DNA from: Steromphala cineraria
Lineage: Eukaryota > Mollusca > Gastropoda > Trochida > Trochidae
Assembly: GCA_916613615.1 (NCBI GenBank)
Contig: OU744737.1
Coordinates: 1,074,001-1,138,000 of the forward strand
Reading direction: 5' to 3'
Length of the DNA: 64,000 nt
Both the position numbers and the translations under genes were made by a program. The stretch's first letter is position 1; each line of letters starts with the position of its first letter. This document shows, piece after piece, positions 1,627-20,874 of the stretch. The notes beneath the pieces were generated by a model that searched no databases, had not been told where the DNA came from, and worked only from the letters and a program-made list of their open reading frames with translations.

Positions 1627-3657
1627 ATGTCACAGGTGTCAAGTGACTTTACGTGGCACCCATCGCAGACAGATGAAAGTGATATGAGTGGAAATAATGA
1701 TTTTTCTTCTGAATGCTAAATTACTGCAGTACCTGCACATTAATGAATCAACCAATGGCACAGATCCACTAGGTAAAGTGAGACCACTTCTAACCGACGC
1801 TCTGTCCAACATAAGGGAGAATTATGCCCCAAAGCAGCACCTGTCCCTAGATTAGGGCATGGTTGCATTTAAAGGGAGACACACTGCAGTACAATACAAT
1901 CCCTCAAAACCAATCAGGAGAGGTTTGAAAGTTTGGATGCTCTGTGATAGCCAGTCTGGCTTTTGTCACAAGTTTTAGGTTAGAAAATGAGCATTTACTC
2001 TACCTATTTGACTATCAATTCTTTACTCTGTATACAAATGGATGAATATTACAAGTTATCAAGCTGATTTATTTGATATTTAATTAAAATTATTTATAAA
2101 GTGCAAAATTATTATCAGAACTTTTAAAAAACTATATCAGACCTTTTACCAAATCATCATGATGAAAATGTCATTTCAGGTGTACATGGGAAAACTGCTT
2201 GAAGGGGATAGCGGTCCAACGGATACAAGGTGACCCAAGGTCTAACAACCGAGCTGGCCGGGAAACACCACCAGGTGTTCTTCGACAGCTATTTTACATC
2301 CAGCCCTCTACTGATCTCACTGAAGGAAGATGGCATTTACACCTGTGGTACTGTAAAAGCAAACAGGAAGGGTCTTCCGCATGAATTCAGGTTAGTCAAG
2401 TCATTTATCATTTAAAACAAAGTGGTAATACTTTAGGATAGTCAAGTTACAAAATGTGTCTGTTGTGAATCAGAGGTTGTGAAATATTTTTCATTTGTAT
2501 TGTATTGTTATTCTTCAACTTGTAAGGGAATAATCAATGAATCATATTATTATTGCTGATAAGTCATCATTATCAAGGTAGAAAATAAACATTAATTAAC
2601 TTAGTGGTAGTCTGTAGGGCTACTAATTCAAGTTTTAACCAGCAAGAATTGAAAGCAATAGTGCATGACAACTACAAGGTATTAATATACATTTGTATGT
2701 GTCCATTGATGATATCTAACTTGGTAAAGGGGGAAATTTCAACACCTGCTGTGACTAATCCATTGTTTTTGAGGTAATATTCCAAACCTACATGGATGGA
2801 GTATAAAGTGTTTGGAGCCAATATTAAACTTAATTCATTCCTCAGACAGAAAGTGCAAATTTCTAGCCCAGTTACTATTTATGTGTGTTTCTTGTGAGTT
2901 AATGACTATTTTGTCTGTTAGCCTAGTTAAATAATGGTGACATTTACAGTGTGTACTGATTGTTAAAGTTATAAACTGTTTGTTTCAGAAGCCTTCTAAG
3001 ATGCAGCAGGGCGAATCCCGAGCATACCAGTGCAGACAGCTGACAGCCTATGTATGGCAGGATAAGAGGCCCATCATCCTTCTTGCAACAACATCGGACC
3101 CTACTGATGACGTCCCTGCACTGGGACGGCAATCGGACGGATCGTGGACGCGTGTCTCCAGACCCGGCGCAGTGGCTTTGTACCAGCAGCACTTCAGGGG
3201 TGTCGACAAGTGAGATCAGCTTAGAGCTGCCTATCCAGTTGGAAGAGCTTCAAGGAAGTGGTGGAGATATATCTTCCATTTTATAATCAATATCTGTATG
3301 ATAAATGCTTTTATCACAGCAAAGGAGTCTGCAAGAGCTGAACAAGAGTGGGCAAAGAGTCGCTACTGCCAACTTGAATTCAGGATGAATCTTGTACATC
3401 AATTGGTTTCAGCATTCCAACATAGGGGGAGATCCCGTAACGGTGTGTTGCCACTAACCTGTTCCACACTGCATGAGCACAGATTGGTGCGCCTTAAACG
3501 AAAGAAGTCGACTTGCAAGTGGTGTCGTGCAAAGAGAGGTGTGAGGCGGGATACCGTCTATGGCTGTGTGTCGTATAACCAGCACTTCTGCTCCCTGGCC
3601 CACCACAGTGCCTACCATGCTATAGGACCACACACTCAACAGGAACATGAACAGTGA
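1627..3657 (+). pseudogene. decayed piggyBac (PGBD4-like) transposase, three blocks separated by intron-like gaps
   Basis: Block 1 (1627-1979) has an acidic N-terminus starting MSQVSSDFTW. A large internal deletion and frame change near 1719 follow, then a block with LGKVRPLLTD and FKGR. Block 2 (about 2173-2396) has HHQVFFDSYFTSSPLL and CGTVKANRKGLP. Block 3 (about 2990-3657) has RPIILLATTS, FRGVDK, RKWWRYIF and a C-terminal Cys-rich finger beginning CKWC. These are family landmarks of DDE piggyBac transposases. The three expected catalytic Asp codons are present at 1850-1852, 2284-2286 and 3205-3207. It is inactive: TAG at 1853, TAG at the block 1 end, a one-base frame slip near 2230 and TGA at 3211. 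Both gaps start with GT, end with CAG and fall at homologous joints, so they were probably introns. A decayed domesticated copy or an intron-bearing transposon both fit. Confidence 0.88.
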
Positions 3658-3659
3658 TC

Positions 3660-5630
3660 ACAGTGTCTTTCACATTCTCACTTTGAAGCAAAGATTTACC
3701 AGTACCTGACATTCATAGACTCTTCATGCTTTCCTCCACTAAAAACTGATATTGATACATTCTGACTTATAAATCTTATATCATTTGCAAACTGGCAACT
3801 GCACTGTGTACATAGAGTTATTCTTTGTTATGTGTTTCAATGTTTTCAAGGGAGACAATCCAATTTAAACTGTAACGGTAACCATCTTTTCATGAGTTGT
3901 AGGAAATTTACTGCATATCATACAATATGATTAGTAAGCATCAGTATAAAAGTAATAATTTATACATGTACTTTAAACATTGGATTCTGATATGGTGAGC
4001 CTTGAGTTCATTAGAGAATTTTGGAATGATTGAAAGTGAATTGTCTCCCCTTGATCAACATGTTTCTTTATTTGTTTCTACATTGTGAATGAAATGAACA
4101 TAACTTATATATATTTGACATATTTGATTGATTGTGTAACAATAAGAGACCAGTACATGATGATTCATGTCTATGATAATGATAATCACTCAAGTGTTTG
4201 CCTCATCAACAGACTTGTTCATAATACAGATGTCATGATTGCAAGAGTTGATAAGCTAATGTTGATAGACTATAGTTTCTGTGAATGTTTCCTATTTCAT
4301 ATTAACTAATAAGGAATGTTAGTTGCATTATTAAATAAGAATAAATTAAGCATTCTACTCTTATTCCTCTCATGTTTTTTCTTCCAACTGTGTTGCAGTT
4401 TTGGAAGTCAGTGATTCAACAGCAGTAAAGAACATAGCAGACTTCACATTGGAATTAATTGATTATTTATATTATTTCTTGATTGTTAAACATTCAAAGC
4501 TGTTATCTGCTTTAATGTGCTATAACATCATTAAGGAAAGGCTAATGTTACGTTTGTGATTTACATTTGCTCTGATGAAGTCATTTAAATTACTTTCCTT
4601 GATCATCATTTGAACCAGATTATCTCCCCTTATCCATCAATCAAACAAATCTTTACATCCAAACTCTCAAGTGTACTTTATCTTTTTATTGTTCTTTATA
4701 ACCTTAGAGTACTAGTTATTCTTAAACTGCTTATTAAATAGCTCTTAAATGGGTTTTTGTCTCTTAAACCTTTTCAGGATATAAACATAAGTATCTTTCA
4801 CCTGCTGTAAAGTGTACTCGTTAAGATATCGTTAATGAATTTAAAAAAGTTAAAAAAATACTTTTTAGTGACCGAGAAATCATTAAGGAATAATTGTATC
4901 ATATCAAAAGTTACATTTTTTTATTTCTAATTGTTTTTAATTTTCTTGCAAGCAGTAAGGGGCTGTGAAGGTGCTTGTCAGGTAAGAAGGAAGGGGGTTG
5001 TTGGGTGTCGGTATTGCAAGCAGTAAAGAGTTTAAAAAAAACAGAACTACCTTTGGCATATCGACCATAAAGAACTCGAGCTGAATATAAGTGAAATATG
5101 AGGAATATTCACATAATGAGTGTACATGTTTGTTAAGAAAGTGCAATACTCAAAATATAAATTTCTTCATTTATCTAATATTAAAAACCGGACAGGTATA
5201 TAATCATCCGGACTGGCAGATGTTTAAAGTAACCAGTCCGGCTGTCTGGCTTTAGTTTTTGGGAGTTTTATACACTGGGTACTTGCATTAAAATTTTGTG
5301 GATTTAAAGAACTTCTGTAGATAGAAATTTTATCCCATGAACATAATTTACATCTCAAGTGCAAGAAATGAGTGAATGAAGGATGTGCTTAGAATGAAAT
5401 TCAAATTGCAGACGTTTGAGACACGCCCATTATCGATAACTAATGATTGAATCTTTCTTCTTTTAGATAATGAGTTTATCCTTAAACAGTTTTGTTTATA
5501 TTTGAAACAGCGCCTTCTTTCTTGTCAGGCAAATTTTCCCTGGTAGAGGTAGGGTAACAATAACGTTTCCCCAGTGTATCTATGGTATAAGTTATGATAG
5601 GATAGAAAGGTGAACTCTGTCCTCCACAGT
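3660..5630. other. AT-rich sequence without recognised gene
   Basis: This follows the transposase stop. No coding exon, terminal repeat or RNA gene could be supported. A short phrase (TTGCAAGCAGTAA) occurs twice near 4947 and 5014, without evident meaning. Confidence 0.4.
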
Positions 5631-5639
5631 GAACCCATT

Positions 5640-5745
5640 TACATGGCGATGAGGTCAGATGATTTAGTATTTAACGATGCTTTCAAGCATATTTCAAATA
5701 TATCATGGCTCATAGTATTATTGCAGGGAGAAAGTCCTCAATGCT
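5640..5745 (+). repeat. diverged copy of a dispersed repeat (5.6, 21.2 and 49.8 kb)
   Basis: The segment with CTTTCAAG, TATTTCA and GCAGGGAGAAAG recurs around 21240-21320 and 49858-49920 with about 75-85% visible similarity. No protein is encoded. It is probably part of an old interspersed element. Confidence 0.45.
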
Positions 5746-6912
5746 ATTTTCACTATGCAATGTGGTGAAACCTTCCATCATCGGCTGGACCTGAAATTCA
5801 GTGTTATCTTGCACTCAAAAAGTTCAGTCAGTTTCCTACTGCAAACAAAATTGCCGAGCCCTTTGCTGTATTCGAACCCTGAACCACTTGTTCCACGCCC
5901 CTCTCCAAATAACATTGATGGAGTTTGCATGCAATATCATGTTGATGCAGATACAAAATTCCATTTGAGGCTGTTTGTTTTATCAAAACAGTTTTTTTTA
6001 AACCAATGTCTCTGCCATAAGAAACTCTTTTCAATAATGTCACATGCTGTATATTATGTAGAAAGGCATTCAAATTAAAATTACATTACATGTATTCTTT
6101 TAAAGGGTTATTTATAACCTTTAGTAAATAGAGAATCTCAGTAAGAGTTACAAATATCCGAAGCTTGCCGAGGATTTTAAACTTTTATCAAGGAGTGTTG
6201 ATATATTGATATCAGAAGACAAAAGTTTGGGACTCTATTTAACATCCTAAATAATTCTTCATTAGGTTTTAAAAGAATGATGAACATTTCTGAATACAAA
6301 ACTCATATTTGGGTTTCAGTGCTGTGATGTCATAGCATTGTGATGTTATCATGTTTATGATGTCATAGCATTGTAAGGTGATTAATTGATGATGCAAAAG
6401 TATTGTGATGTCATGTAGATGACGCCATCAGGGCATTGTTCCAAATCTACTGACTGTCAAAACGATATGGAAGCCAGTTTTGGATGAAAACACAAATAAT
6501 AACCCAACTAAAACCTCATTTGTTCACATCATCAAGGACAGTAGATCGAGATTGCTTTCATTTAGAAGCAGTTGCAGAGTGATCTTACAACTGTAAATAG
6601 AGAAACCACATGCAAGCATTTGTGTTTTAATCTTACCAATACAAGGCATTGCACTTGATGAAATATAATTGTAGAAGAATTTTATAAAGTCTATTAAAAG
6701 ATACTTAATTGTTTATACCTTTAACAGATGAAACCAAAATTCATTGCGGAAAGTAATTGAAGTTTTGTTTTGTTGGAACACACACCTTTTGAAATGGACT
6801 GTTCTTAATCTAATTTATAACTAAAATAGTCAAACCCTTGTTATGTTTCATATTCTTCTGCAATATTTTGAATGAATTATGATATGTTTGATTCCAAAAG
6901 TACAGAAGCCTG

Positions 6913-7172
6913 TTACCGCCAACATAAAATGAAAAGCTTCTGGCAATAACGACTGTTCATCTCGTAAATACGACTTTCAATTTGAAGGCAATGATAAATT
7001 AAGACTGTCACGACAGTAACCTTTTTGAGAGATAAGCTCCTTCCACAAGTTTCGTTCAATTTCACCGACACACATATGTTTTTACTTGCTCCTTGTGCCC
7101 AGTTAAGGAATTCTTCAAATGTGTATCCCTTATCATGGACTATTTGAATACATCTATCAATTGCATCCATGT
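6913..7172 (-). CDS. possible exon, unrecognised protein
   Basis: The minus strand has an 85-codon open frame starting MDAIDRCIQIVHDKGYTFEE and containing ICVSVKLNETCGRSL. Composition (mixed hydrophobic/charged, regular Cys and Trp) is more protein-like than the surrounding AT-rich DNA. An AG acceptor-like site (CCTATCCTAAAAG) lies just before the frame. Only a weak donor (AAG|GTTACT) is visible within it, so the true 3' edge is uncertain. I do not recognise the family. It may be a lone exon of a minus-strand gene or chance. Confidence 0.3.
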
Positions 7173-7675
7173 CACTCTTTTAGGATAGGCAATTATTTTC
7201 AATTAAACACCCAAAAAGTCTATCACAAAATATATATAGAAATTGATATCATAATAATTATGCTACATGATATGCATTGTATATATTTTAGTGTCATCTA
7301 AACATTAATTAAGATTTATTCGTTAACTAATAACATATATTCATCCCAAATGCTGAACACACTTTTTGGACCATTGTGTGTAGAAGTTCAATGAAGTTCA
7401 TGAAGGCTAGGTAATCAGTGATTTTTTAAAGTATGGTTTGAATAAATCTAAAGCATCATTACAATAAGTAATGGTCTTTCTAAATGTTGGGACTAGGGCA
7501 AACTGACCAAGGTTCGGACAGCGTCCCATTTTAAATATCTTCAGAGATTGTATTGTCAAATATTTTATGAAGAAAATTTGTAAACTAAGTAAATTAAGCA
7601 AACTGTGTTATAAACAATCATCATTTCTACAATTTTATGATAAAAATTGATTGCAGACTACCTGCAAAAAGACAG

Positions 7676-7963
7676 TTTAAAGGGACAGTTGTAAGACAAT
7701 ATATTCAAACTAAATGGAACAGTAATAATTCTGATACATAATGTTAAGTTTAGCCATGCGATTCCTTTTTCTTAATCAAAGTTAATTAAAGGTGTTCACA
7801 AAAAATGGCCGCCAATGGAATTCATGTGAATCGTCATACTTTGTCCTCTGACTATGGCTGATTGGCTTGTGTAATGAGATTAATGACACTATCAAAGTAA
7901 TAATAAACAGTGAACATTTTATAAATTTTTAAATTATCAAAAAACGTGCTACTGCCCCTTAAA
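7676..7963 (+). mobile_element. short inverted-repeat element (MITE-like), copy 1
   Basis: About 290 bp ending in AACGTGCTACTGCCCCTTAA. Its interior (GTGTTCACAAAAAATGGC, then TTTGTCCTCTGACTA) is shared with the copies at 20514-20874 and, inverted, 20905-21190. The best-preserved left end is AAAGGGGCAGTAGCACG (copy at 20.5 kb), the reverse complement of the right end here. TTAA occurs at the outer edges of copy 2, but I cannot be sure of the target-site duplication. Confidence 0.6.
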
Positions 7964-8925
7964 GTTATGTATAGAAAATCACCAAGGTTTTTTACCTAAC
8001 TTCGGACAATACAACTCTATTTGCCTGTATACACACAGCTTAAATATAGTCATTGAAATAGTTCCTATCATCACCAAACATGCATTAGGTCATCTATGTA
8101 CAATAATATAACAGTATTTCTCCAACATGATAAACTTCCGCAAGTGTCGCATGAGTCATTTGAAGTTGATGACGTCACAAAGGCATTTGCAAGCTCTGAC
8201 ACAAAAACCATCGTAAAAGCTAAACTAAATGTTTTCAAAGTAAAACGTCTTGCTTGAATGTTTATTTTTGTTTCCTAAGCATTTGTTGGGCAATTTTTTT
8301 TATTACAGATCAATATAAAGAAAGGTTAAAAGTGTCAGAAACTGTCCGAACTAAAGTCCTTTTGATATAATATTTCGAAAATCTTGATATTAACTCCCAA
8401 GTTCATTTTAGAATTGCAAATGTCAATAGATGTTTGATTGTTTCCCTTTTAAAATAGATATAATCCAAGATGGTTTGGCACTACCTCCATTATCTTGGCT
8501 TTGTGTAAACATTTACATAAACAAATAATATCTGGCCACATTCTTCCATGTAATTGGTAAAGTGTTCTATTTTAAAAAGTTTGTTGATTAATGTGTCCGA
8601 CAATAAAATGTAATGCTGAATGTGATGCAGAAAACACAGCTAAATACAGACTTCGCATTTCTATTTCAGGGTGTGAATGTGATAATATATTGTGGGGATA
8701 AAGGGGATAGCTAGGGGTATCTTATCCTTATTGTTAGCCTCTGAGTTGCTGTCGGTGTGTGTCAGTCTTATGACTCGTGGACCAAAATGGTGCCGGTAAA
8801 ATTGAAAAAAATTGATTATGGTCACTCTTGTAAATTACAAGTTGCAGGGATTGAAGTAAAGATGATATGCTCTATTGTGATGGGTTTCTGAATGAAAATA
8901 TCAGATAAAGTGAATTTTATTTCAT

Positions 8926-8948
8926 TATGAGTGAGTGAGTGAGTTATT
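8926..8948 (+). repeat. short (GAGT)n run
   Basis: Four to five GAGT units in otherwise AT-rich DNA. No coding or structural context was seen. Confidence 0.6.
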
Positions 8949-9399
8949 GTTTTTCGCTGATTGGGCAATACTTCAGCCATTAGCGGCGTCCTTTCGTTAT
9001 AAAAGAGGATAATGTCCATATTTACACATTACAAACACAAAATATTACGTCCTCAAATTGACATATAAACTAAAACTGTAAAGCGATTGATAAGGTATAA
9101 ATTGGTAACATCAGAATTAAAATATTGTTCAGATTGGAAATAAAGCCGTCATTAAACTGAGAACAAGTTGTATTAAGAGCCAAGAGACAAGTTTTAAAAA
9201 TCGATGTTTCAGCGAATTTCACAACAATTTGTATATGAATTATCTAAATATGTTGCAAATTTCCTCAGTTTATTTGGAATATTCAATAGATAAGAGTTAT
9301 CAAAACAATGTCTCATTTTTTGGCTCGGAGGTATAACACATTTATCCAGAGACAGTGAAATGTAAGTCAAGTGAATGTTTCGTTTCTACCCAGATGCTT

Positions 9400-9475
9400 T
9401 TTATAATACCCTACAAAGTTGCTTGGGTTATATATAGTTGGTGTATCCGACCATCTGTCTGTCTGGCCGCCAATA
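9400..9475 (-). repeat. reverse-oriented end of a microsatellite-bearing dispersed element
   Basis: Read on the minus strand this contains a GACAGACAGATGG run followed by a segment ending GGGTATTATAAAA. It matches the right-end layout (ACAG/ACGG run, then GGGGTATAA) of elements ending near 49720, 49997 and 56158. Confidence 0.4.
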
Positions 9476-9479
9476 CATG

Positions 9480-10550
9480 CATCTGTCACCTTTTGTTCAA
9501 TTGATAACTCTGATATTTATAGCTGTAATGTAAGGAAACTTGTCACATGTAATCACTAGATGTAGGATGAATTTGCAAACATAATATACTTATTAACTTT
9601 GGGGTAAAGATGTACTTTATGTATGATTCAGTCCCTCATCATTAATCATAGAATATATTTCTAAATCAATTGTCAAATACATATGCATATACTTTATGAG
9701 CTTGCTGATAAAGGCTTTCTGATCATTAATCCTAGTACTCTAACTGCAATTTTTGTAGGTTCTTATTGCCAATCAATGGTAATGATGATGTAAATAGTGA
9801 CTCAACCAGAAGGTCAGTTTTGGGTTAAGGATAGATATCTTTATTAGGTAAACTTTGAAGTTCACTGACCCACTAGGAAACTGTTCTTGTCTTGCTTCTC
9901 ACGTGCAGCACCTGCGCGCTCAAGTTTCGCCTTGGCTAAAATTAGAACTTATGAAACAGTGCTTTCTGATAACTTGCCGTGTGAAAAAAGATATACCATA
10001 CTTTCAAATTGATCTGTAGGGGGAATTACATGTTTACTTTAATGTGTGAATTGGGCAGAGTGTAAATTATACTTATGTATTCAGCAATTTGAAGACATAC
10101 CGGTTTTTCAAATGTACATATAACAATTATTCATGGAGAATAAACATGAGTTTTTTTCACACTATGACATTCATAAAAAAAATTGAAATTTACTGTTTGG
10201 TAATACTGTCTACCAAAAAAAGGCAAATATATGTTCTGTGTTATCTTAAATAACTACTCGAGCTATTTGTATGTGTGTCTAAATAACTCTAGACTTGTTG
10301 AATGAGGATGTAGACTGCCGTAATAAAGGTTCCTATTTGATAAACCTTCAGTATGCTTGACTAAACAAGAGTCTTCATTTAGAAATTAGTAGAGCAATCT
10401 GAAATGATGAGGGTCATTCTTCATCAAGTTGAATGGTTTCCTGCATACAAAATCTTGGACACAAATTGATAGTATTTATATGGAGAGAAAATGTGTTTCT
10501 GTGCAATTAAACTAGTTGTGTACAATATGCTATGCAGATGCAGTTGTTGT
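9480..10550. other. AT-rich sequence, nothing recognised
   Basis: No exon or repeat array can be supported here. An ACGTGCA-containing segment near 9900 resembles one near 11405 and may be an old dispersed repeat. Confidence 0.35.
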
Positions 10551-10554
10551 ATCT

Positions 10555-10790
10555 TGCAAATATTGCAAATATTCATCACAAATCTAGACCTACTTTTCTT
10601 ACATTGGTGTTCATCACAAATCTAGAGTTGCTTTTCTCACAATGGCCGATTAATACAGATCTAGACTTGATTTTCTCAAACTAGCATTTAATATAAATCT
10701 AGACTTGCTTTTCTTACACTGGTGTTCAAAACATACCTAGATTTACCCTTCGTAAACTTCTGATTTTTCTAAACCTAGACTTTCTCTTCA
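10555..10790 (+). repeat. short degenerate tandem repeat (~45-55 bp, 4-5 copies)
   Basis: The phrase AAATCTAGACTTGCTTTTCT recurs with changes at about 10580, 10620, 10660 and 10696, and once more degenerate near 10740. Spacing is irregular. It is not coding. Confidence 0.6.
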
Positions 10791-10799
10791 AACAAAATT

Positions 10800-11950
10800 A
10801 ATCATTATCTCGGTTTTGTTCACATAAAAACGATTGAACATCATTTTTGTTATTTTTGACTAGACCCCTGACATTACACATTCCTGAAATCAAAATATAT
10901 ATTTTTCCTGTATTGATAATGAGATATATAGATGCAGGCAGTGTAAGTGGTCAAAGAGATACATGGAGATTTCATGTTCATATTTACTCGGGAACGTTGA
11001 TAAGTAATAGGTAGAAAAAAAACCGTGATTATCTGCTTCGATGCTCTCACATCTGCATATTTTAGTTTGTAAAAATAATTTCTATTAATAATCAACAGAT
11101 AGGTCTGAAAAATCATTGTCATATCATACACTTTATGAATGATTATACGAGTTTACAAATGCCATAATGGAAACTTATTTAGAATGTATTGACATTACAT
11201 TGACATATCAAAATGCATTACTACTATTCACTGTTAGTTGTACAAATATTCTTCATTAAGCGACTTTGTTATATATTTTATTTAATTGATCTCCTATGTC
11301 TGTATGGATATATGGGATTTGTGAATATTCATTAGAGAATGGTAGACAGTTTGAAAGCTTAAAAGTTGGCAGACGGGATCTGCACCTGTGTTAATCTTTC
11401 TTTCCACGTGCAACGCATGAAGGGTACAACTTTGCCCTGGTTAGAAGTCCTTTAAAACAGCTCCGGCTTGGCTACTCATTTATGGACGTATTTAAGAAAT
11501 TAGATACTTTGCAATATAACAGATAATTCAAGCAAATAATGGTATCCTACCACCAAATGTAGAAATATGTTATTTCATTAAGTTTGTTAGATCCTGATTA
11601 GCAAGATTCATAGGAAAATTGCGTTGGTTACATTCACTAGGACTGGTGATAAAGGTTTCAATTATAGTTTAAGTGATTTTTGTGGAACATTTCCGAACAG
11701 CTTCAGCCAAAACATAATATCAACTCTCAACCATTCATAATTTTAACAATTAATGTGATTTATTCTATAATTTGTTAACAAAGAGTGTGTTTTTTTTCTA
11801 AAATTAAAAAAAATTGTGACTCCCACAGAAAAATTGGTGTATCATTCTGATTTTTAAAATCAAATTGATAAATTTTGAAATAATTATTTTCAGTTTGACT
11901 ATGAATTAAAAACCAAAAAAATACATCTAGGACCTAAATACTTCATCAAG
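10800..11950. other. AT-rich sequence, nothing recognised
   Basis: No exon, RNA gene or array is visible. Composition changes sharply to GC-richer sequence at about 11950, where the SET gene promoter begins. Confidence 0.4.
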
Positions 11951-11957
11951 TGAGAGT

Positions 11958-12244
11958 GGGCGGGGCCTAGCTAGAGTCACAATTTGTAGGAAGAGCCACG
12001 TCAACGCGATCAAACCACAGGGAGAACTGGGTTGCGTTCGGGCGATCAGTATTGGCTGGGAACAAGTCTTAATTTTAGGTACCAGTAGCACATGATTACT
12101 GACAAAAGCATGTTGCATTTAGAACATCTTGTGTTGATGTTGACGACCAAACGATTCAGATGCGCACGCACCTGGTCAGGTTGTCTGGTGGGAGGAGCCT
12201 AAGGCAGGGTATAAAGTCTTCTCCCGCCACAATTTTGCCATTCC
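11958..12244 (+). promoter_or_regulatory. histone-gene-like promoter of the SET-domain gene
   Basis: Elements in order: a GC box GGGCGGGGC at 11958-11966; an inverted CCAAT box ATTGGCTG at 12051-12058; a TATA box TATAAAG at 12210-12216; and CCATTCC at 12238-12244, which fits the cap-site consensus of many histone genes (YCATTCR) except at the last base. The spacing of 30 bp from TATA to the presumed start A at 12240 is standard. This predicts a 5' UTR of about 46 nt before the ATG at 12286. The elements are seen directly; their use is inferred. Confidence 0.7.
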
Positions 12245-12285
12245 GCTCTCAATCTTCGCACCATTGATCTGAGCAATTTTTCACG

Positions 12286-13161
12286 ATGCCAAGAGAAAGT
12301 CGAACAAGCCGATCCCAACGCCGTGGTCTGACAGTGGACCCCAAGACCAGCATGGCCTGCCCCTTCCTCTCTGCCTTCGCCGAGCTGTACTCCCCCTGTG
12401 CCGGCAACGTCATCGCCACCAGGGACCTCCACGCGGAGTACAAGGCCTACGTAGCGGCGAAGACCAGAGACGGAAGACTGGTGGACGTAGCCAACAGCTT
12501 TGCCAGGTTCTCCCTCCAGTTTGCGGTCGTTGCTGTGAACAAGAACTTCGTCAAACATACGACCAGGGTAAAGGGGTATGAAGTGGTTAGGATTAACCGT
12601 AGTGCTAGGACAGCGGGGGTTAATGATGGGGACGCTTTGGCTAGTCCTCTTGGGTACGATTTTAGAGATTATAATAGACGTAGCTCTGTTTTGGACCGGG
12701 AACGAAGGGGGGATCTAAATTCTAGTCCTTTGATAGCGCCTGTCAGTACTGAAATTGGGAAGGGGTTGTTTGCAACACACGACTACCCTGCTGGGGCAGA
12801 AGTCTGTGAGTATTTTGGCCAGATTGTTAGTGAAGAGGAGGCAGAAATTCGGCAGGACGAGTACGACAGGCAGGGGTTATCGTATAGGTGTATTCAGTTT
12901 GAGGGTTGCCGACGTTCATCACATTTACGTTTAGATGGCCAGCGTAATCACTTGGGGGATCGAATTGATCCTGACACAAATTTGGGAGCAACGATGAACC
13001 ACTCGGCTCGAAATTCTAATTGTAGGTTAGTTTCTGAATTGCGGGACGGGAGGCGAAGGTTCTTCTTGTATACAAAGACGGCGGTGAGCTCGGGAGGAGA
13101 ACTAACATGGAACTACAATGACCAGAGGCCAGGACTACCCGCCTTCCTTAAGGACTCTTGA
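12286..13161 (+). CDS. intronless SET-domain protein lysine methyltransferase (KMT5A-like SET) with N-terminal putative winged-helix module
   Basis: This is a 291-residue intact frame. The SET domain spans about residues 152-279: GKGLFAT at 158-164, CEYFG at 174-178, the MNHS signature at 237-240 (N238/H239, cofactor pocket) and GGELTWNYND at 270-279 with the expected active-site Tyr277. The LRLDGQRNHLGD stretch resembles KMT5A/SET8 order, and no post-SET Cys cluster follows, so a histone or other protein lysine substrate is likely. Residues 25-105 (ATRDLHAEYKAYV then VKGYEVVRI) look like a winged-helix fold such as that ending viral D5-type primases; this is inference. Basic residues 1-15 could bind DNA or act in nuclear import. 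The first ~85 codons are strongly C-ending, the next ~160 much less so, hinting at a mosaic origin. The ATG is the first after the predicted cap site. The 3' end is histone-like. Confidence 0.9.
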   Translation: MPRESRTSRSQRRGLTVDPKTSMACPFLSAFAELYSPCAGNVIATRDLHAEYKAYVAAKTRDGRLVDVANSFARFSLQFAVVAVNKNFVKHTTRVKGYEVVRINRSARTAGVNDGDALASPLGYDFRDYNRRSSVLDRERRGDLNSSPLIAPVSTEIGKGLFATHDYPAGAEVCEYFGQIVSEEEAEIRQDEYDRQGLSYRCIQFEGCRRSSHLRLDGQRNHLGDRIDPDTNLGATMNHSARNSNCRLVSELRDGRRRFFLYTKTAVSSGGELTWNYNDQRPGLPAFLKDS

Positions 13162-13200
13162 GAAGCTGAAGACCACAGGCTAGCTTGCTTCGACAACCCC

Positions 13201-13216
13201 GGCCCTTTTCAGGGCC
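13201..13216 (+). terminator. histone-mRNA-type 3' stem-loop
   Basis: GGCCCT-TTTC-AGGGCC is a perfect 6-bp stem with a 4-nt pyrimidine loop, beginning 40 nt after the SET gene stop. It matches the metazoan replication-dependent histone 3' element (GGYYYU UHHH ARRRCC), including the UA pair closing the loop and the GG start of the stem. The 3' flank AACAAC is A/C-rich as in histones. No AATAAA lies within 100 nt after the stop. In histone mRNAs this element binds SLBP and directs cleavage without polyadenylation. Confidence 0.85.
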
Positions 13217-13225
13217 AACAACTCG

Positions 13226-13238
13226 CAAAAAAGATAAC
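13226..13238 (+). promoter_or_regulatory. purine-rich histone downstream element (HDE)-like segment
   Basis: GCAAAAAAGATAA starts about 10 nt after the stem-loop, the position at which U7 snRNP pairs with a purine-rich HDE in histone pre-mRNAs. Sequence agreement is loose, so the call depends on position and the stem-loop. Confidence 0.5.
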
Positions 13239-13274
13239 TGGATTCAATGCTGCATTCCAATAATCAACAACGCT

Positions 13275-13535
13275 GAAAGAAAACTTTCAATGCAAACCCT
13301 TAAACATTGTTGAAAGAAAACTCTCAATGCAAACCCTTAAACATGGTTGAAAGAAAACTTTCAATGCAAACCCTTTAGAATTGTTGAAAGTAAACTCTCA
13401 ATGCAAACCTTTAAAAAATTGCTAAAAGAAAACTCTCAATGCAAGCCCTTAAACATTACTGAAAGAAAAATCTCAATGCAAGCCCTTAATATATTGCTGA
13501 AAGAAAACTCTCAATGTAAATCCTTATTAAATTGC
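13275..13535 (+). repeat. 37-bp tandem repeat (7 units plus a degenerate eighth)
   Basis: Units begin with GAAAGAAAACTCTCAATGC at 13275, 13312, 13349, 13386, about 13424, 13461 and 13499, so the period is 37-38 bp. Most units contain CAATGCAAA, one base short of the octamer ATGCAAAT. The repeat starts 60 bp past the SET stem-loop. The open frame across it is a repeat artefact. Confidence 0.9.
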
Positions 13536-13559
13536 AGAAAAAATTGTAAATGAAAACCC

Positions 13560-14226
13560 CTAACTTCTTTATAATTGCAAACAAATATAAGACAAACTTC
13601 AAAAGATAAAGCACGAGGAAAAATGAAAGATAGTATTATCAATGTCATAACAAATAATACAAATTATTTTTAATTTCATGTTTTTGCGAAATTATGTTGA
13701 TTCAATGATGAAGGGGAATTTTTAAAAAGACATAAAGCAAAACTTATAACTCAAGAGATAAAACAACCCAAGAAAAATCTGATAAACTTAAAATCATTAA
13801 CTGCGAATTGAATCCAATTTACACCTATCCAATATATAGATATAAAACTCAAAAGGTTGACACAATTATGGTTAAATAAACAAAAACAAAGCTTAGTTAA
13901 CTTCAAACTTTGATTTTGTTTTGAAATATTATACAAGTCTTTTAAGTTTTGAAGTTGAATAGTCAGTTATTATTGCAGAAGTAGGATAGCATTACTCATC
14001 ACCGATGAGTTTCGTGCCTTTGCTACGGAAAGACGTTACAATTATGGACGGACAAACGTCTGGACGAACAGACAATGAACTTAATTACATATGAATTCTC
14101 TCAGATATTCGTTTTGACTCTCAGTACTTTATACACTCTCAATATTTGATAAGATAAGTTGTTTTACTTATAAACGAGCAATGATGAAATACAGTTGAAT
14201 TTCAAACAGACAGACTGGGAGTATTT
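13560..14226. other. AT-rich sequence, one possible microsatellite-element remnant
   Basis: No exon is seen. Around 14030-14075 a GACGGACAAACG/ACGAACAGAC stretch resembles the right-end microsatellite of the dispersed tandem-core elements, but no cores accompany it. Confidence 0.35.
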
Positions 14227-14460
14227 CTAAATCAAATCTCTTTTTTCAAATTTCTTTCTTAAAATCTGTTCCTTCCCTACAATGTTGACACCCAGTGAAT
14301 TTGACATGTGCTCGTGCAAAGCGTGGCCTATATGTGACTTGTGCCCTAGAAACCATAACACAGACGTCTTAATTATAACATCTTCATCACTAATATTTGC
14401 CTCATTAAAACATTTTTGAAAACGAAATCGATTCATGTCACACAAAACTTTTGTCCAGAC
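14227..14460 (-). pseudogene. possible exon or exon relic, homologous to 16602-16790
   Basis: The minus strand reads through 70+ codons including NEANISDEDVIIKTSVLWFL and HALHEHMSNS. The nucleotide segment resembles 16602-16790 (shared TTGACATGTGC, then ACACAG at the same spacing), whose minus-strand frame contains VIIDSSLQRR and HDLHVHMS. The pair are paralogous exons or copies of an old repeat. No splice sites convince me and no family is recognised. Confidence 0.25.
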
Positions 14461-15167
14461 GCAGTTATTTCAAACTCATAATTACATTCATTCTCGTAAT
14501 AAGGAATTTGGCTTATTTTATAATGGCATGGTCTAACATCGAAAACGTTTTCAATGTGTTGTAAAATTAGTACAGTTGGTTATGTTATTTTAAAATCAAT
14601 CAGGTTATCGTAGGCAATGCAGGGAAGCTGGAATGAGGTTTAATTATTCGCCGTGCGTGAGGGATTGGGTACCGAGGTGACTATTAAACGTGTTGTTAAT
14701 TGTTTCCAATATCAAATCTGCTAAATCAGCCAAATTAGGTTGTGTAATTTTATATTATTCCTACTCCTGTTTTCCCGTTAAGAGATTTATTTCTTTATTG
14801 TGCGAGTCTAGTACAATGATTTAGCCATATGTCAGCTAGTTAAAAAAAGGTCTCTGGTCTTTTCATACAGAGAACAGTGGTGCCATGATTTGTGAAAATC
14901 ATTTCTTATCTTTGATCATTGAACATCACAGGATTGAAGAGATATAAAATAATATAAACTGTATTTCTGCAAAATCATCTTTGTAGGCCTTTACGAACAG
15001 AAAGGATTTATATCTTAAAATTTCATATTTCTTTTTTTTTAAATTTGATTAGAACTCCTTTTTATGTGTGGCTTTGAAACTGTGGACAGAAACAAGAAAC
15101 TGGAATAACTGCTGGTAATCTAAATATTATCCATAAGTCTACTATAAGGGACTGGTTAAACAATATT

Positions 15168-15188
15168 GGGGGGGGGGGGGGGGGGGGG
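15168..15188 (+). repeat. 21-nt poly-G run
   Basis: Twenty-one consecutive G, then TATGTG and six more G. It is prone to slippage and able to form G-quadruplexes. It lies 70 bp left of an inverted-repeat element. Confidence 0.95.
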
Positions 15189-15258
15189 TATGTGGGGGGT
15201 AGGTCACTATCAAGCCAATTGGTATGTATATAAAAAAATTTCCCTCCCAAAATCGATG

Positions 15259-15778
15259 TACCGTATTTCCTCGAATACAACCCCGGGGTTCTATTTCGTT
15301 CAGTACCCCCTTACCCCCCGGGTTATAATGGAGGCCGGGTTGTATTTTTTCAGGTCTGAATTGACGTTTCAAAATCTTCTAGGAATGGCGTTTTCATAGA
15401 AAATTATTGATCTAGTTCTACATATCTCGTGGAATTTCTGTTGATATTCATTCTTTTATCAAAACCCGTATCAATCCCTGCAATATACGGTTTCCATGAA
15501 GTATATACTTACGGCATAATATACAAGTGTTTCTTTTCAAAACGAGCGTATTACTGATCTATATGCATAAGAAAGAAGCTGTATACATGGATATCAAATA
15601 TCAATGTATATTACAGAATGTTACTTAATTTGCAACAGGGAGTATTCATTTTTTATGTTAGATCTGGGTTCTATTCGAGACCCGGGTTGTATTTATGTCA
15701 GCACCCCCTTACCCCCCGGGTTATATTCGAGGCCCGGGTTGTAATGGAGGCCCGGGTTATATTAGAGGAAATACGGTA
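15259..15778. mobile_element. 520-bp MITE with 14-bp perfect terminal inverted repeats
   Basis: TACCGTATTTCCTC at 15259-15272 is repeated inverted as GAGGAAATACGGTA at 15765-15778. Each end is followed inward by GC-rich blocks with the shared phrase ACCCCCTTACCCCCCGGGTT and several CCCGGG palindromes. No transposase frame is present. The TA at each outer edge could be part of the repeat or a TA target duplication. Confidence 0.8.
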
Positions 15779-15789
15779 ATCTTTTATGG

Positions 15790-17015
15790 TGGGCCTGGTG
15801 TAATTTTTTCATTATCCTCCTTAAACTTATATATAATTATCCCTTGGAATAAGACTTTATGTAGTTTTACATTTTACATTTTTCATTGACTGCTATTAAT
15901 AGAATGTTGAATGTTACATATTACTCTGTCAATATTTGGTTATGTATGTTAATGTAGAGTCTTGCTTAATTGGGCTTCCTCATAGACTCACTGTTGAATT
16001 AATGTTCTGTGGGAAAGATAGGATAACGGATTGCATGATAATGGTTGACATGTGCATCACTTATGGATATGCTAAACTGTACAGTTTCAATCTGTACAGC
16101 CTTGTAGGAAATGATTTTGTCAGCGATTCATTAAATAGTTTAGAATCTATTTGGGAAGGCGAGTGCAAGACTTTCATAGGCAAGGTTAAAATCTACTAAT
16201 CAAGGTGATTAATTCTTAAATTTTATTTTAAATGTTATTTGCAGAAACATAATGATAAGTTCAGTCAATCAGGGCACCAAGTGTGTGGAGGCCAGGCAAC
16301 TCTAATTTCTTCATGCCAAAATGTTATAAGACATTCATAAGACATTGGCTTTTGTGGCTAAAACAACTTAGATAATTCAATATTTCATCAAATAGTCTTT
16401 TAAAGTGTCAAAGCGTAAATTGTTGTATTTAAAACCAACAGGGGCACAACTATGTATTTTGAGTTTGGACAGATAAACACTATTAAACAAATAACTTGGC
16501 AAGAAAACAGATAACGGCAAGGGAAAAAGTTAAGGAATATAAAGTTCAACTCATAACACGATAGAGCCAAGTCTTATAGGTTCTTCCAGTCTGTCTCATT
16601 TCTACAAAGCTGACAGTGAGGGATCTGAAATTGACATGTGCACGTGTAAATCATGTCTTAGTCCGGTTGCCCTTGCAACGTTAAACACAGGCCGTCTTTG
16701 CAGGGAAGAGTCAATTATTACCAAACCAAGTTTTCCCGACTGACACAGGACTGAATTATTTAAAACACTTGTTTTAGACAACACAATACATTTAAAACAT
16801 TGATAAGATTTTTTAACTCACATCTACATTTCAAAGTCTACCATATAACCATGGCAAATATTCGAACCTTTGATCCATTCAAACATAATAATGGGCTACT
16901 ATCAACGTTTATTTGAAAAACATATCTTCCAAATTTTCCCAATGGCTTTGCCACATAATATTAAGGACATTCGCTGAGTATGCATAGTTATTACAGAAAC
17001 AATAACAACAAGCAA
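15790..17015. other. AT-rich sequence with one exon-like relic (16602-16790, minus)
   Basis: Apart from the minus-strand frame paired with 14227-14460, nothing is recognised. The plus-strand frame at 15936-16199 has no splice context or known motif. Confidence 0.3.
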
Positions 17016-17020
17016 AACTA

Positions 17021-18376
17021 GAGCCATTGGCTCTGTAGCTCATCAGGCATCATATCAAGTTTGCTTTATACAGGCAAGATGAGCTAAAAATGAAACTGAT
17101 GTTACCTATTGCAAGAAAACCTATAAAAAAATAACAAAACAAATGTATTATTATTCAACACTTTCTAGATCGCCAATATCAGACAATGAAAGAAGTCCAC
17201 ACTAAAATATCCAAGGAGAAATAAATTCATCTAATGGAGAAACATAGGTTTTTAAGATTGTGACCCCTGTGACCCCTGTGACCCTATTTGGGGTCATGGG
17301 GTCACAAAACCTACAGTTTAGAATCCCAATTGGCGAAGGAGTCTACATTCAGTCTTTCAGCTCAATAGACCTTTAGGAGCTAAAGATGATGATGAAAATA
17401 AGTGTTAAAGGTTGTGACCCCTGTGACCCTATTTGGGGTCATGGGGTCACGAAATCTATAATTTAGAATCCCCATTGGCCAAGGAGTCTGCACATATAAT
17501 TTCAGCTCTCTAGACCTTTTGGAACTTGAGAAGAAGATGAAAATAGTTTTTTAAGGTTGTGACCCCTGTGACCCCAAATAGGGTTACAAAGTTACAAATT
17601 AGAATCCCCATTGTCCAAGGAGTCTGCACATATCAATATTAACTCTCTAGACTTTTTGGAACTGGAGAAGAAGATGAGAATTGGTTTTTAAGGTTGTGAC
17701 CCCTGTGACCCTATTTGGTGTCATGGGGTCACGAAATCTACAATTAAGAATCCCGATTGGCCAAGGAGTCTGCACATATCATTTTCAACTTTATAGTCCT
17801 TTTAGTACTGGAGAAGAAGATGGAAATAGGTTTTTAAGGTTGTGACCCCTGTGACCCTATTTGGGGTCACAGGGTCACCAAAGTTACAAATTAGAATCTC
17901 AATTGTCCAAGGAGTCTGCACATATAATTTTTAACTCTCTACTCCTTTTGGAACTGAAGAAGAAGATGAAAATAGGTATTTAAGATTGTGACCCCTGTGA
18001 CCCTATCTGGGGTCACAGGGTCACCAAAGTTACAAATTAGAATCCCCAATGGCCAAGGAGTCTGCACATATCATTTTTAACTCTCTAGTCCTTCTGGAAC
18101 TGGAGAAGAAGATGAAAATAGGTTTTTAAAGTTGTGACCCCTGTGACCCTATTTGGGGTCACAGGGTCACCAAAGTTACAAATTAGAATCTCCATATGCT
18201 AAGGTACTTGTACACAAAATGTCAGCTCTCTAATGTGTATGGTTCATGAGGAGAAGTCGAAAGTGTCAAAAGTTTACTGACGGATGACGGACGACGGACG
18301 GACGACGGACGGACGGACGCCGGACGACGGGCCATGCCATAAGCCTATCTGGACTTTCAGTCCTGATGAGCTAAAA
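17021..18376 (+). mobile_element. pearl-like (Helentron-derived) element with ~7 tandem cores
   Basis: The left end has the small palindrome GAGCCATTGGCTC then TAGCTCATCAGG. The ~146-bp core contains GACCCCTGTGACCC and AGTCTGCACATAT. An ACGG-rich run at about 18284-18330 is followed by GCCATGCCATAAGCC, a hairpin GGACT-TTC-AGTCC at 18351-18363 and CCTGATGAGCTA. Left TAGCTCATCAGG and right CCTGATGAGCTA are exact reverse complements. This layout matches bivalve pearl elements. No protein is encoded. Confidence 0.85.
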
Positions 18377-18379
18377 ATC

Positions 18380-19020
18380 AATGTTGGCCATTTCTGTGTA
18401 AACACCTTTTACTCATTTTGGATTAGAAAATGGATGTCCATAGGGTAACCAAATAAAGTACATTCGTTTTATTGATGCATTATTCAATATCTTTGACTTG
18501 CAGCTGATAATTCTTACTTTTTCGTTTTCTTTTGTTACTAAAATTGAGCTACTGCCGCTTTGACACATTTTCATCTATACAAGCACATAGGTGACAGAAA
18601 GTACAATAAAAAGAGTCATGTTAGAGTCCCTTATTCTTGCTGTTATCAGCAATGGTATGTTTTCTCACTCGAGGACGGTAAGCACGTTTATAAAGGGGAA
18701 GTGAAGTGGTCTCACAGACAAACAACAAGTGTGGAGAGACAATCAAAGTTATAAAATATTTCTAAAAAGTGCAAAGTTATATCAAATAATTTAAAAACGT
18801 TTCTTGCTTCATTCGTAACAACTTAAATGATGAAACAGACACTAGTGATTTATGCCTTTTAACATAATAAAGAAACATTTTAATACAAAATGATAATATT
18901 AATAGTGCACTTTTCCCAGGTACTAATAACCTGCTCAAAGTGCAAACTACATAATTACCCTGAAGAATCGAGTAAGCATACAAGCAATTAGCACGAACAT
19001 GTAGTTCCGTCAGTAACCGA
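18380..19020. other. AT-rich sequence with a possible microexon
   Basis: A pyrimidine-rich acceptor (TTCTTGCTGTTATCAG) at 18634-18649, 28 nt reading QWYVFSLED, and a GTAAGC donor at 18678 form a plausible microexon. It is unsupported by neighbours. Confidence 0.25.
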
Positions 19021-19029
19021 TTTTACAGC

Positions 19030-19170
19030 TTGTTGAACTGAGTGAAGGAGAATAAAGTGCCTTATCGAGGGGAAAAAAACAGCACAGTATGACACCCAGG
19101 TGTTTCGAGTCTCTTTTAGGATTTGAACCCTGGTCGTTTGCGCAATAGACCAAACAAAGGCACCGGGCTG
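19030..19170 (-). mobile_element. tRNA-derived SINE trace
   Basis: On the minus strand, GGTTCAAATCC (complement at 19119-19129) is a Pol III B box, with a phrase related to the SINE at 58035-58185 on the same side (TGACACCCAGG). The tRNA head is too diverged to type. Confidence 0.45.
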
Positions 19171-19226
19171 TGTTTCTCTCCCCTTTCTAGTATCAACCTA
19201 AAAATCTACAAGGTTCCTATAAAATA

Positions 19227-19763
19227 GAGCCATTGGCTCTGTAGCTCATTAGGCTTTATGTCAATATTGCTTTAGGGTGTGGCAAATGTGGTTGTCCCTT
19301 TAGTAGGGTCCACTTGGTCACCAAATGTTCAATTTAGAATCCTACTTATCTAACTTAGGAGTCTGTAGATAAGGTTTCAGCTGTCTATGCCTCAAGCTTC
19401 TGGAGAAAAAGAAGAAAATAGGTTTAAAGAGTGTGGCCCCTGTGACCCTTTTTAGGGGTCACAGGGCCATATAAGCTATGAATTATATTCCTCACTATTC
19501 AAGGAGTATGTACACAAGGTTTCAGCTTTCTAGGCTTTATTCTTCTTGAGAAGAAGATGAAAATAGGTTTTAAGGGCGTGGCCCCTGTGTCCCTTATTAT
19601 GGGTCACAGGGCCTCAAAAGCTCCAATTTATTATCTTCACTAGCCAAGGAGACTGTGCACAAAGTGTCAGCTATCTAGGCCTTATGGTTCTGGAGAAGAA
19701 GTCGAAATTCCACCATTCCATGCCATAAGCCCATCAGACCTTACAGGCCAGATGAGCAAATAA
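19227..19763 (+). mobile_element. pearl-like element, GGCCT hairpin subfamily, damaged right end
   Basis: It has the GAGCCATTGGCTC left end and two to three cores of the 'GTGGCCCCTGTG' subtype. The microsatellite is lost, and the right end is CAGGCCAGATGAGCAAATAA, where GAGCTA has become GAGCAA. Confidence 0.8.
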
Positions 19764-19769
19764 AAGCCA

Positions 19770-20513
19770 ACTCTTTAGATCAATGTCAAGGTCACTTAGT
19801 GATGGGTGTCTGGTCGGGTTCGAATCCCTTAAGGGACTCAACATTACAAGTACAAAAAACAAAAGGGGTCAAAATAAAAATAGTATATAGTGTTTACCTT
19901 AGGCATATTTCGCAGGGCGCAGAGCCAAACATTTTAATTTACCTTTTCCATAAATTCAGATATATGATTAGATACTTTACAAAGTTACAGTATTGTTTCA
20001 TGTTAAGAATATAAAAAGAAATTTAAGACAAGAATGGATTAACCCTTTGTTTAAACAGCATGCATGGTTTGCTGACCCCATGTTAATCTAGCTACAGGAA
20101 CAATAACAATACCGAGTGTTGATTGGTGGACACAGCTCAATGATCCCATCATTTGCCCTTATATTTGGTAAAACACAACATTTATTAATGAAAATGTGGC
20201 AGTACTGAAATTGTATATATTTATTATGACTAGTTACTCTAATTTAAGACAGCTAGAGTTGTGTTGTTTATAGTATTTTAGAAATATTATAGTGAAAGTC
20301 TTAAACAATCATCAAATTGCCAGTAAATGTCAGTGTCAATTGCCAGTGTAGGGCTTATTTATAAAATAAGTTATATTAGCAGCCACATATATTTCATATT
20401 TTACCATTTTCGCTTGAAGAGTGACTCAAAATTAACTTGTCTGTAGGTGCCGTTTTGCAAGTCATTGTGCCCTTTTCAAAAAGGAGTGGCCCTGTCTTTT
20501 TTTCAGCTTGGTA
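19770..20513. other. non-coding sequence, one B-box-like site
   Basis: GGTTCGAATCC at 19817-19827 matches a Pol III B box, but no A box or tRNA fold is apparent. The rest is AT-rich and unrecognised. Confidence 0.3.
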
Positions 20514-20874
20514 TTAAAGGGGCAGTAGCACGTTTTTTGTGGGAATATAAGGTGATGTCGGGAAAATGAAACTTAATGGTTCGAATTGAAAAACGATGCA
20601 TTTGAACTAAATGGAGCAGTAATACTCCAAGTATACGTAAAGTTTAGCCAAGCGATTCCTTTTTGTTACACAAAATGAATTAAAGGTGTTCACAAAAAAT
20701 GGCCACCAATGGATTTTATGTGAATCTTTATAGTTTGTCCTCTGACTAGGGATGATTGACTTGTGTAATGAGATTATTGACACTGTCAAAATAATACATT
20801 AAACATTAACCTTCAATTATCAGTGAAAAATTTAAAATATAAAATTATAAAAAGTTGTGGTACTGCACCTTTAA
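20514..20874 (+). mobile_element. MITE-like element, copy 2 (best preserved left end)
   Basis: It starts TTAAAGGGGCAGTAGCACG and ends TACTGCACCTTTAA. The interior is shared with 7676-7963. TTAA at both edges would fit piggyBac-type insertion, but the ends are too diverged to be sure. Confidence 0.65.

Follow-up and report, generated by a model that had tools for sequence, protein, structure and literature searches.

The window analysed here is the whole 64-kb stretch (C44:1074001-1138000) of a 1.27-Gb assembly, in which loci of the same gene family were sought genome-wide. It contains an uninterrupted SET-domain gene with promoter motifs on its 5' side and, shortly after its stop codon, a stem-loop and purine-rich element resembling those of replication-dependent histone genes. 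The features, in window coordinates, are as follows.

11958-11967, + strand: GC box GGGCGGGGCC, read directly; it opens the GC-rich block covering the SET gene
12051-12055, - strand: inverted CCAAT (ATTGG), far upstream, weak evidence
12210-12215, + strand: TATA box TATAAA
12238-12243, + strand: CCATTC cap-like site; predicted transcription start ~12240
12286-13161, + strand: uninterrupted SET-domain gene, 291 codons plus stop TGA
12343-12600, + strand: conserved N-terminal domain (~residues 20-105), without Pfam match
12757-13119, + strand: SET domain (residues 158-278), with GKG, NHS..NC and conserved Y277
13201-13216, + strand: histone-type stem-loop GGCCCTTTTCAGGGCC, starting 39 nt past the SET stop
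13217-13225, + strand: 9-nt spacer; cleavage predicted ~4-5 nt past the stem (13220/13221)
13226-13240, + strand: purine-rich element CAAAAAAGATAACTG, like a histone downstream element, beginning after the spacer

At 11951 the GC content climbs from 26% to 56%, and it drops again past ~13250. Among 2000 simulated stretches matched in length and composition, none yielded a 297-codon frame, the longest being 258. The 291-aa product belongs to the Pfam SET family (PF00856), scoring 50.7 bits (E 2.6e-13) against a cut-off of 22.4 and carrying the core motifs. A first-pass annotation of this DNA had described the gene as free of introns, which holds for the frame at 12286-13161, although an intron in the 5' UTR could still be present. 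Likewise, the TATA box, CCATTC site and ATTGG that it assigned to the promoter are all in place, with ~30 bp from TATAAA to CCATTC, but the "correct spacing" ascribed to them is generous for the inverted CCAAT, because ATTGG sits ~190 bp upstream of the cap-like site.

The N-terminal domain is predicted to form a helix-helix-beta-hairpin, at low confidence (single-sequence prediction, pLDDT 45.5; pLDDT 31 for the whole protein predicted in the same way). A resemblance to the winged-helix end of D5-type helicases was considered, but neither Pfam nor PHROGs gave it backing. The two parts of the gene also differ in third-position GC content (80% in codons 21-100, 12346-12585, versus 45% in codons 101-291; Fisher p 1e-7, with boundaries picked post hoc), as if each half had its own history. 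The Pfam scan of the window covered ten selected stretches. A C-terminal transposase piece, which we take to be of piggyBac type, lies at 3214-3654 (DDE_Tnp_1_7, E 6.7e-6), and a motif scan of all six frames revealed no histone genes in the window.

Turning to the identity of the enzyme, the first-pass annotation had pointed to KMT5A-type enzymes and methylation of H4K20. A profile of the SET family instead favors SETD2 (35.8 bits) and NSD2 (33.9) over KMT5A (28.3) among the matches listed (60 of 78), an ordering of profile bits alone, without a tree, in which the differences are small. Kinship with KMT5A is not supported by these scores. The SET protein has no cysteine after residue 246 and therefore no post-SET zinc cluster, so that it also lacks the cysteine-rich post-SET region of the SETD2/NSD family. 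These scores, the lack of post-SET cysteines and an N-terminal domain without library match together leave the H4K20 idea unsupported. A 5.8-billion protein set returned zero matches to the full-length query or to its parts, residues 20-140 and 140-291; viral (IMG/VR) and prokaryote contig scans revealed no relative of the SET protein, PHROGs gave no match to it, and tblastn against phage records returned only matches of E 0.3 or worse. Homologs outside this genome were thus not found in the collections searched, which hold few or no animal genomes. A tblastn match at 14708-14929 was weak (E 0.021) and we dismissed it as chance, since 1 of 100 shuffled queries equaled it, and under other settings a shorter stretch matched at E 0.11.

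The 3' end of the gene carries the main finding. In the 64-kb window, on both strands, the stem-loop at 13201-13216 is the sole match to the consensus GGYYYTTHTNARRRCC, with a mean of 0.01 expected, and it bears out the earlier description of a perfect histone-type hairpin after the stop. A match to GGYYYUUHUNARRRCC stands at this place (39 nt past the stop in the window) in all 19 intact copies of the gene described below. The Rfam model Histone3 (RF00032) scores the window stem-loop at 30.1 bits, with E 4.9e-7 for 221 nt and ~1.4e-4 when scaled to 64 kb. This score lies below the curated cut-off of 34 bits, so a gathering-threshold scan of the window omits the stem-loop, and we accordingly file the SET 3' end as one that works like Histone3, without curated membership. 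The hairpin is included in the minimum-energy fold of the 99 nt past the SET stop, and the whole-stretch fold of these 99 nt is no better than that of shuffles (z -0.37).

Further downstream on the + strand, poly(A)-like signals first occur at 13526 (ATTAAA) and 13875 (AATAAA), with neither motif present within 360 nt of the SET stop; the claim that no AATAAA lies nearby thus stands. To judge from the letters, an intron-free frame with no near poly(A) signal would be of the histone type. The flanks of the stem are less typical: its 5' flank is ACCCC, where the histones of this genome have ACAAAC-type or AAAAA flanks, so that the A-rich 5' flank of those genes is missing, and its 3' flank is AACAACTC, compared with ACCAAAT in the core histones. 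These flanks probably account for the lower Rfam score. From the motifs and the Rfam match together, we conclude that a histone-type end with atypical flanks is present in the SET gene. A tandem array of 37-bp units lies just 3' of the gene end (13272-13526, + strand) and is common to the SET copies; its unit holds TTGAAAG-AAAA-CTTTCAA-like hairpins, and the array is probably outside the 3' signal.

This genome's own histone genes supply the closest comparison. Of 293097 candidates from a Histone3 search across the genome, the best 75 were scored; all reach at least 40 bits, and the SET copies are consequently missing from that list. Among these 75 stem-loops, we read 20 of the 35 at C2:82 Mb, 1 of the 30 at C5:25.6 Mb and all 10 others. 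The H1 genes read on C2 (20/35) and C5 (1/30) carry a 16-nt stem-loop identical to that of the SET gene, GGCCCTTTTCAGGGCC, together with the element CAAAAAAGA(A/T)AA. The stem-loop lies 35 nt past the stop in H1 on C2, and in the one C5 copy read the frame stops 2 nt before the stem. Histone3 scores H1 of this genome at 41.6 bits, versus 30.1 for the window SET gene. One H1 locus (L137, C2:82.15M), from a 3.18-kb tandem unit, has a 5S rRNA gene on the opposite strand.

The core histones carry the stem-loop GGTCCTTTTCAGGACC in 12/12 units fetched. In H4 it is followed after 9 nt by CAAAAAAGAAAACTT (12/12), in H3 after 9 nt by CAAAAAAGAAAACTC, and in H2A by TCAAAAGAAAACTC; an H2B end was not seen among these 12 units. 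The SET copies have a spacer of the same length as H4 and H3. In seven of the 19 (L114-L120), the element after 9 nt is CAAAAAAGAAAACTT itself, matching that of H4 at 15/15 positions with the same spacing, and the remaining 12, window included, differ from it at 2/15 positions. The purine-rich element proposed beyond the stem-loop is therefore confirmed, at a histone-like distance and 0-2 of 15 nt from the H4 element of the same genome. In the bivalve Lucina, a stem-loop is described in all histone mRNAs, with purine-rich elements near the stem-loop in only some (PMC6210712). A search for U7 snRNA with RF00066 gave no match in this genome, and control genomes were equally without a match. The contig that holds the window also has core histone repeats at its left end (C44:344-11707), with more array on C49 and C50; the C44 arrays lie a little over 1 Mb from the window and 0.8-4 Mb from the contig's seven SET copies. 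Comparison with this genome's own H1, H2A, H3 and H4, together with conservation across the 19 intact SET copies, gives strong sequence-level support to the central claim of the first-pass annotation, namely that a non-histone gene ends like a replication-dependent histone gene.

These 19 copies (L102-L120, including that of the window) share 97-100% identity and lie on C4, C44 and C35. An intact paralog (L121, C4:17.64 Mb) has 54% identity and a SET score of 48.7 bits; there are also two tandem SET arrays, one with broken frames (C4:39.08-39.10 Mb) and another in a more advanced state of decay (C4:57.35 Mb). Two of the intact copies were followed past 3.9 kb, and these have 13-15 kb in common with the window: that at C44:0.82 Mb shares window 5304-20654 at 98.6-99.5% identity, and for that at C35:7.21 Mb the shared part is most of window 5254-18048, with 96.5-99% identity. 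Such long common flanks indicate that the SET gene was copied together with its surroundings. The stem-loop is identical in all 19 near-identical intact copies, 39 nt past the stop (41 in L120), and both stem-loop and downstream element are kept throughout. TATAA and GCCATTC are likewise kept in 19/19, with TATAAG in place of TATAAA in L114-L117.

Because the 19 copies are for the most part recent duplicates, they amount to few independent observations, and the informative comparison is that of the window with L120, the most diverged of the 19. Between these two, the outer flanks differ at 79/489 positions upstream and 98/824 downstream (12-16%), the 37-bp array at 30/296, the promoter block at 19/313 and the ORF at 29/873. 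The stem-loop and element differ at 1/44 positions and the next 28 nt at 3/28; since the stop-to-stem interval has changed at only 2/32, the 3' module is not distinctly better conserved than the sequence adjoining it. Ratios of dN/dS relative to the window, obtained for 5 of the 18 other copies, are 0.18 (L120), 0.13 (L114), 0.24 (L118), 0.15 (L112) and 0.91 (L113), the last resting on 4 changes only.

More distant members of the family vary at the 3' end. In the frame-broken C4 array, the stem-loop reads GGCCCTTTTTAGGGTC in 8/8 units whose 3' end was fetched, with a single base off consensus, by which a G-C pair becomes G-U, and the one such unit scored (L122) reaches 20.8 bits with Histone3. 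Two N-terminal matches in the broken array (L130 and L131) lack a stem-loop in the stretch scanned. In L121, the 300 nt past the stop hold no stem-loop and Histone3 gives no match; the trait is therefore not shared by every member of the SET family. As L121 retains an open frame at dN 0.37 from the window gene, with synonymous change saturated, either it lost the histone-type end or the amplified branch gained it.

In histone mRNAs, SLBP binds the stem-loop and U7 snRNP pairs with the downstream element, with cleavage between the two (PMC5011920). With both signals at histone spacing, the SET transcript should undergo the same processing. We consider an amplified SET family that uses SLBP/U7 3' processing to be the best reading and a quite probable one; its backing so far comprises the frame, the SET domain, the promoter motifs, the stem-loop, the element, their conservation and the match to the genome's own histones. 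From these we infer transcription, cleavage, the lack of a poly(A) tail, the timing of the mRNA and the substrate of the enzyme. Transcription by RNA polymerase II would begin near 12240, driven by the TATA/cap promoter, and SLBP and U7 snRNP would recognize the transcript at 13201-13216 and 13226-13240, respectively. A cut ~5 nt past the stem would yield a non-polyadenylated SET mRNA, which could be active alongside histone mRNAs in S phase, the germ line or the early embryo. The target of the SET protein may then be a lysine in newly formed chromatin or else a replication factor, and the gene would have been amplified with its flanks in duplicated segments.

The alternative that survives best, though we think it unlikely, is that the SET gene was acquired from a DNA virus or from a transposon of viral type (Maverick/Polinton, adomavirus or a relative of these) and that its 3' end is a viral device kept after integration. 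The frame is compact and uninterrupted, as such an origin would lead one to expect, and adomaviruses are described as encoding a SET gene, of 298 aa in one record (PMC12474061, PMC12711042). Furthermore, other top-scoring stem-loops in the genome follow non-histone genes. Ten of the best 75 lie outside the H1 arrays, and all ten were read. Six of them, scoring 40-40.6 bits, form a second family (L160-L164 and L166; C5:31.79M, C5:44.89M, C7:68.96M, C41:41.2M, C41:58.0M and C2:40.25M) with a Cys-rich C-terminus. In five of the six loci (L160-L164), the stem-loop lies 20-23 nt past the family frame, which carries LRCDE, an LxCxE motif; the L166 frame is in pieces and the motif was not seen in it. 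Adjoining L161 are a BIR protein (64.8 bits), an rve integrase (43.5 bits) and a Pox_A32-like ATPase (29.5 bits), together with a weak protease match (E 0.0093) and a capsid-like frame without Pfam or IMG/VR match. These surroundings fit a Maverick/Polinton (adintovirus-like) element. Viral genes defined by short linear motifs have been given the class name "oncoid" (PMC11071296).

The other four loci are of different kinds. In three (L157-L159; C6:4.96M, C3:59.96M and C3:59.97M), the stem-loop lies 18 nt past a 77-codon Cys-rich frame that ends in KCSCYC; its C-terminus resembles that of the LxCxE family on visual inspection alone, a link that tblastn did not recover. In the fourth (L165, C3:23.88M), it lies 29 nt past a basic SR/K-rich frame that, from its sequence, looks like a protamine-like sperm protein. 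It is an evenly balanced proposition that histone 3'-end processing here serves the SET family, the protamine-like protein and the Maverick/Polinton LxCxE genes alike, host and virus-like genes sharing a replication-coupled control of their mRNAs. A viral origin of the SET gene itself is opposed by the nine proteins of the L161 element, which match neither the 64-kb window (at E 0.01) nor the fetched SET copies with their flanks, L102-L135 (at E 0.001); this comparison, made with one such element, thus gives no sign of Maverick/Polinton genes next to the SET gene. The 13-15 kb that the two long-followed copies have in common with the window, and the lack of a relative in the IMG/VR scans, from which such viruses may be missing, also stand against it.

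Still less probable, in our judgment, is that the histone 3' end was gained from a nearby histone array through gene conversion or duplication, with the mRNA polyadenylated downstream and the stem-loop surviving as a relic or minor alternative end. Core histone arrays do share the window's contig (C44:0.3-11.7 kb), L121 manages without a stem-loop, and some (variant) histone genes have both kinds of 3' end. A relic, however, sits poorly with a stem-loop and element that are kept while the outer flanks diverge, with the absence of AATAAA or ATTAAA near the stop, and with the altered stem of the broken copies. A silent duplicated family without present function, which the spread in duplicated segments and the frame-broken older tandem arrays might suggest, seems more doubtful again: frames are open in the 19 near-identical copies and in L121, dN/dS is 0.13-0.24 in four of the copies measured (0.91 on 4 changes in L113), and promoter and 3' motifs are conserved. 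A chance hairpin, for which one could cite the GGCYCTTTTCAGRGCC motif in 101 IMG/VR viral-contig stretches (a number of them <=50 nt after an open frame), appears for practical purposes refuted by the own-genome comparison, in which element and spacing agree with the histones; the consensus hairpin alone is expected 6e-5 times per 100 nt at the composition of the SET locus, a Histone3 control on 20 of the 101 loci (E up to 5) listed two at 19.4 and 19.3 bits versus 30.1 for SET, and the one terminator-like site in 12900-13400 lies on the opposite strand, away from the hairpin.

Histone mRNAs are described as the only animal mRNA class that lacks a poly(A) tail (PMC12775136), and no description of a SET gene with a histone-type 3' end was found among the titles and abstract openings of the open-access PMC literature. 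If SLBP/U7 processing of the SET family is borne out, a conserved enzyme family with a 3' end like that of the host's histones would widen the histone-only rule, and a single RNA signal would connect histone supply with a chromatin-modifying enzyme. The Maverick/Polinton-like parallel, if true, would be a case of mobile DNA using the same switch.

Several known systems bear comparison with the SET gene. The SETD2/NSD and KMT5A enzymes have the SET fold motifs in common with the window protein, but the match is confined to the SET stretch; the N-terminal domain of the window protein, which has no Pfam match, differs from theirs, and their known members are described as having polyadenylated mRNAs. 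The adomavirus SET gene is of similar length and also encodes a SET domain, a likeness drawn by description only (PMC12474061, PMC12711042). The LxCxE gene (L160-L164) is, like the SET gene, a non-histone, multi-copy gene with a histone stem-loop shortly past its stop, whereas its protein is unrelated to SET and its L161 copy is carried by an element with an integrase and a packaging-type ATPase. The H1, H2A, H3 and H4 genes of the same genome share with the SET gene an uninterrupted frame, multiple copies and a downstream element that is almost identical in sequence and in spacing. Their stem-loops lie 27-35 nt past the stop (H1 on C2, H2A, H3 and H4), compared with 39-41 nt in the SET copies. 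Unlike the histone genes, which stand in 3.2- or 4.2-kb tandem units, the SET copies are dispersed in duplicated segments and their product is a SET enzyme.
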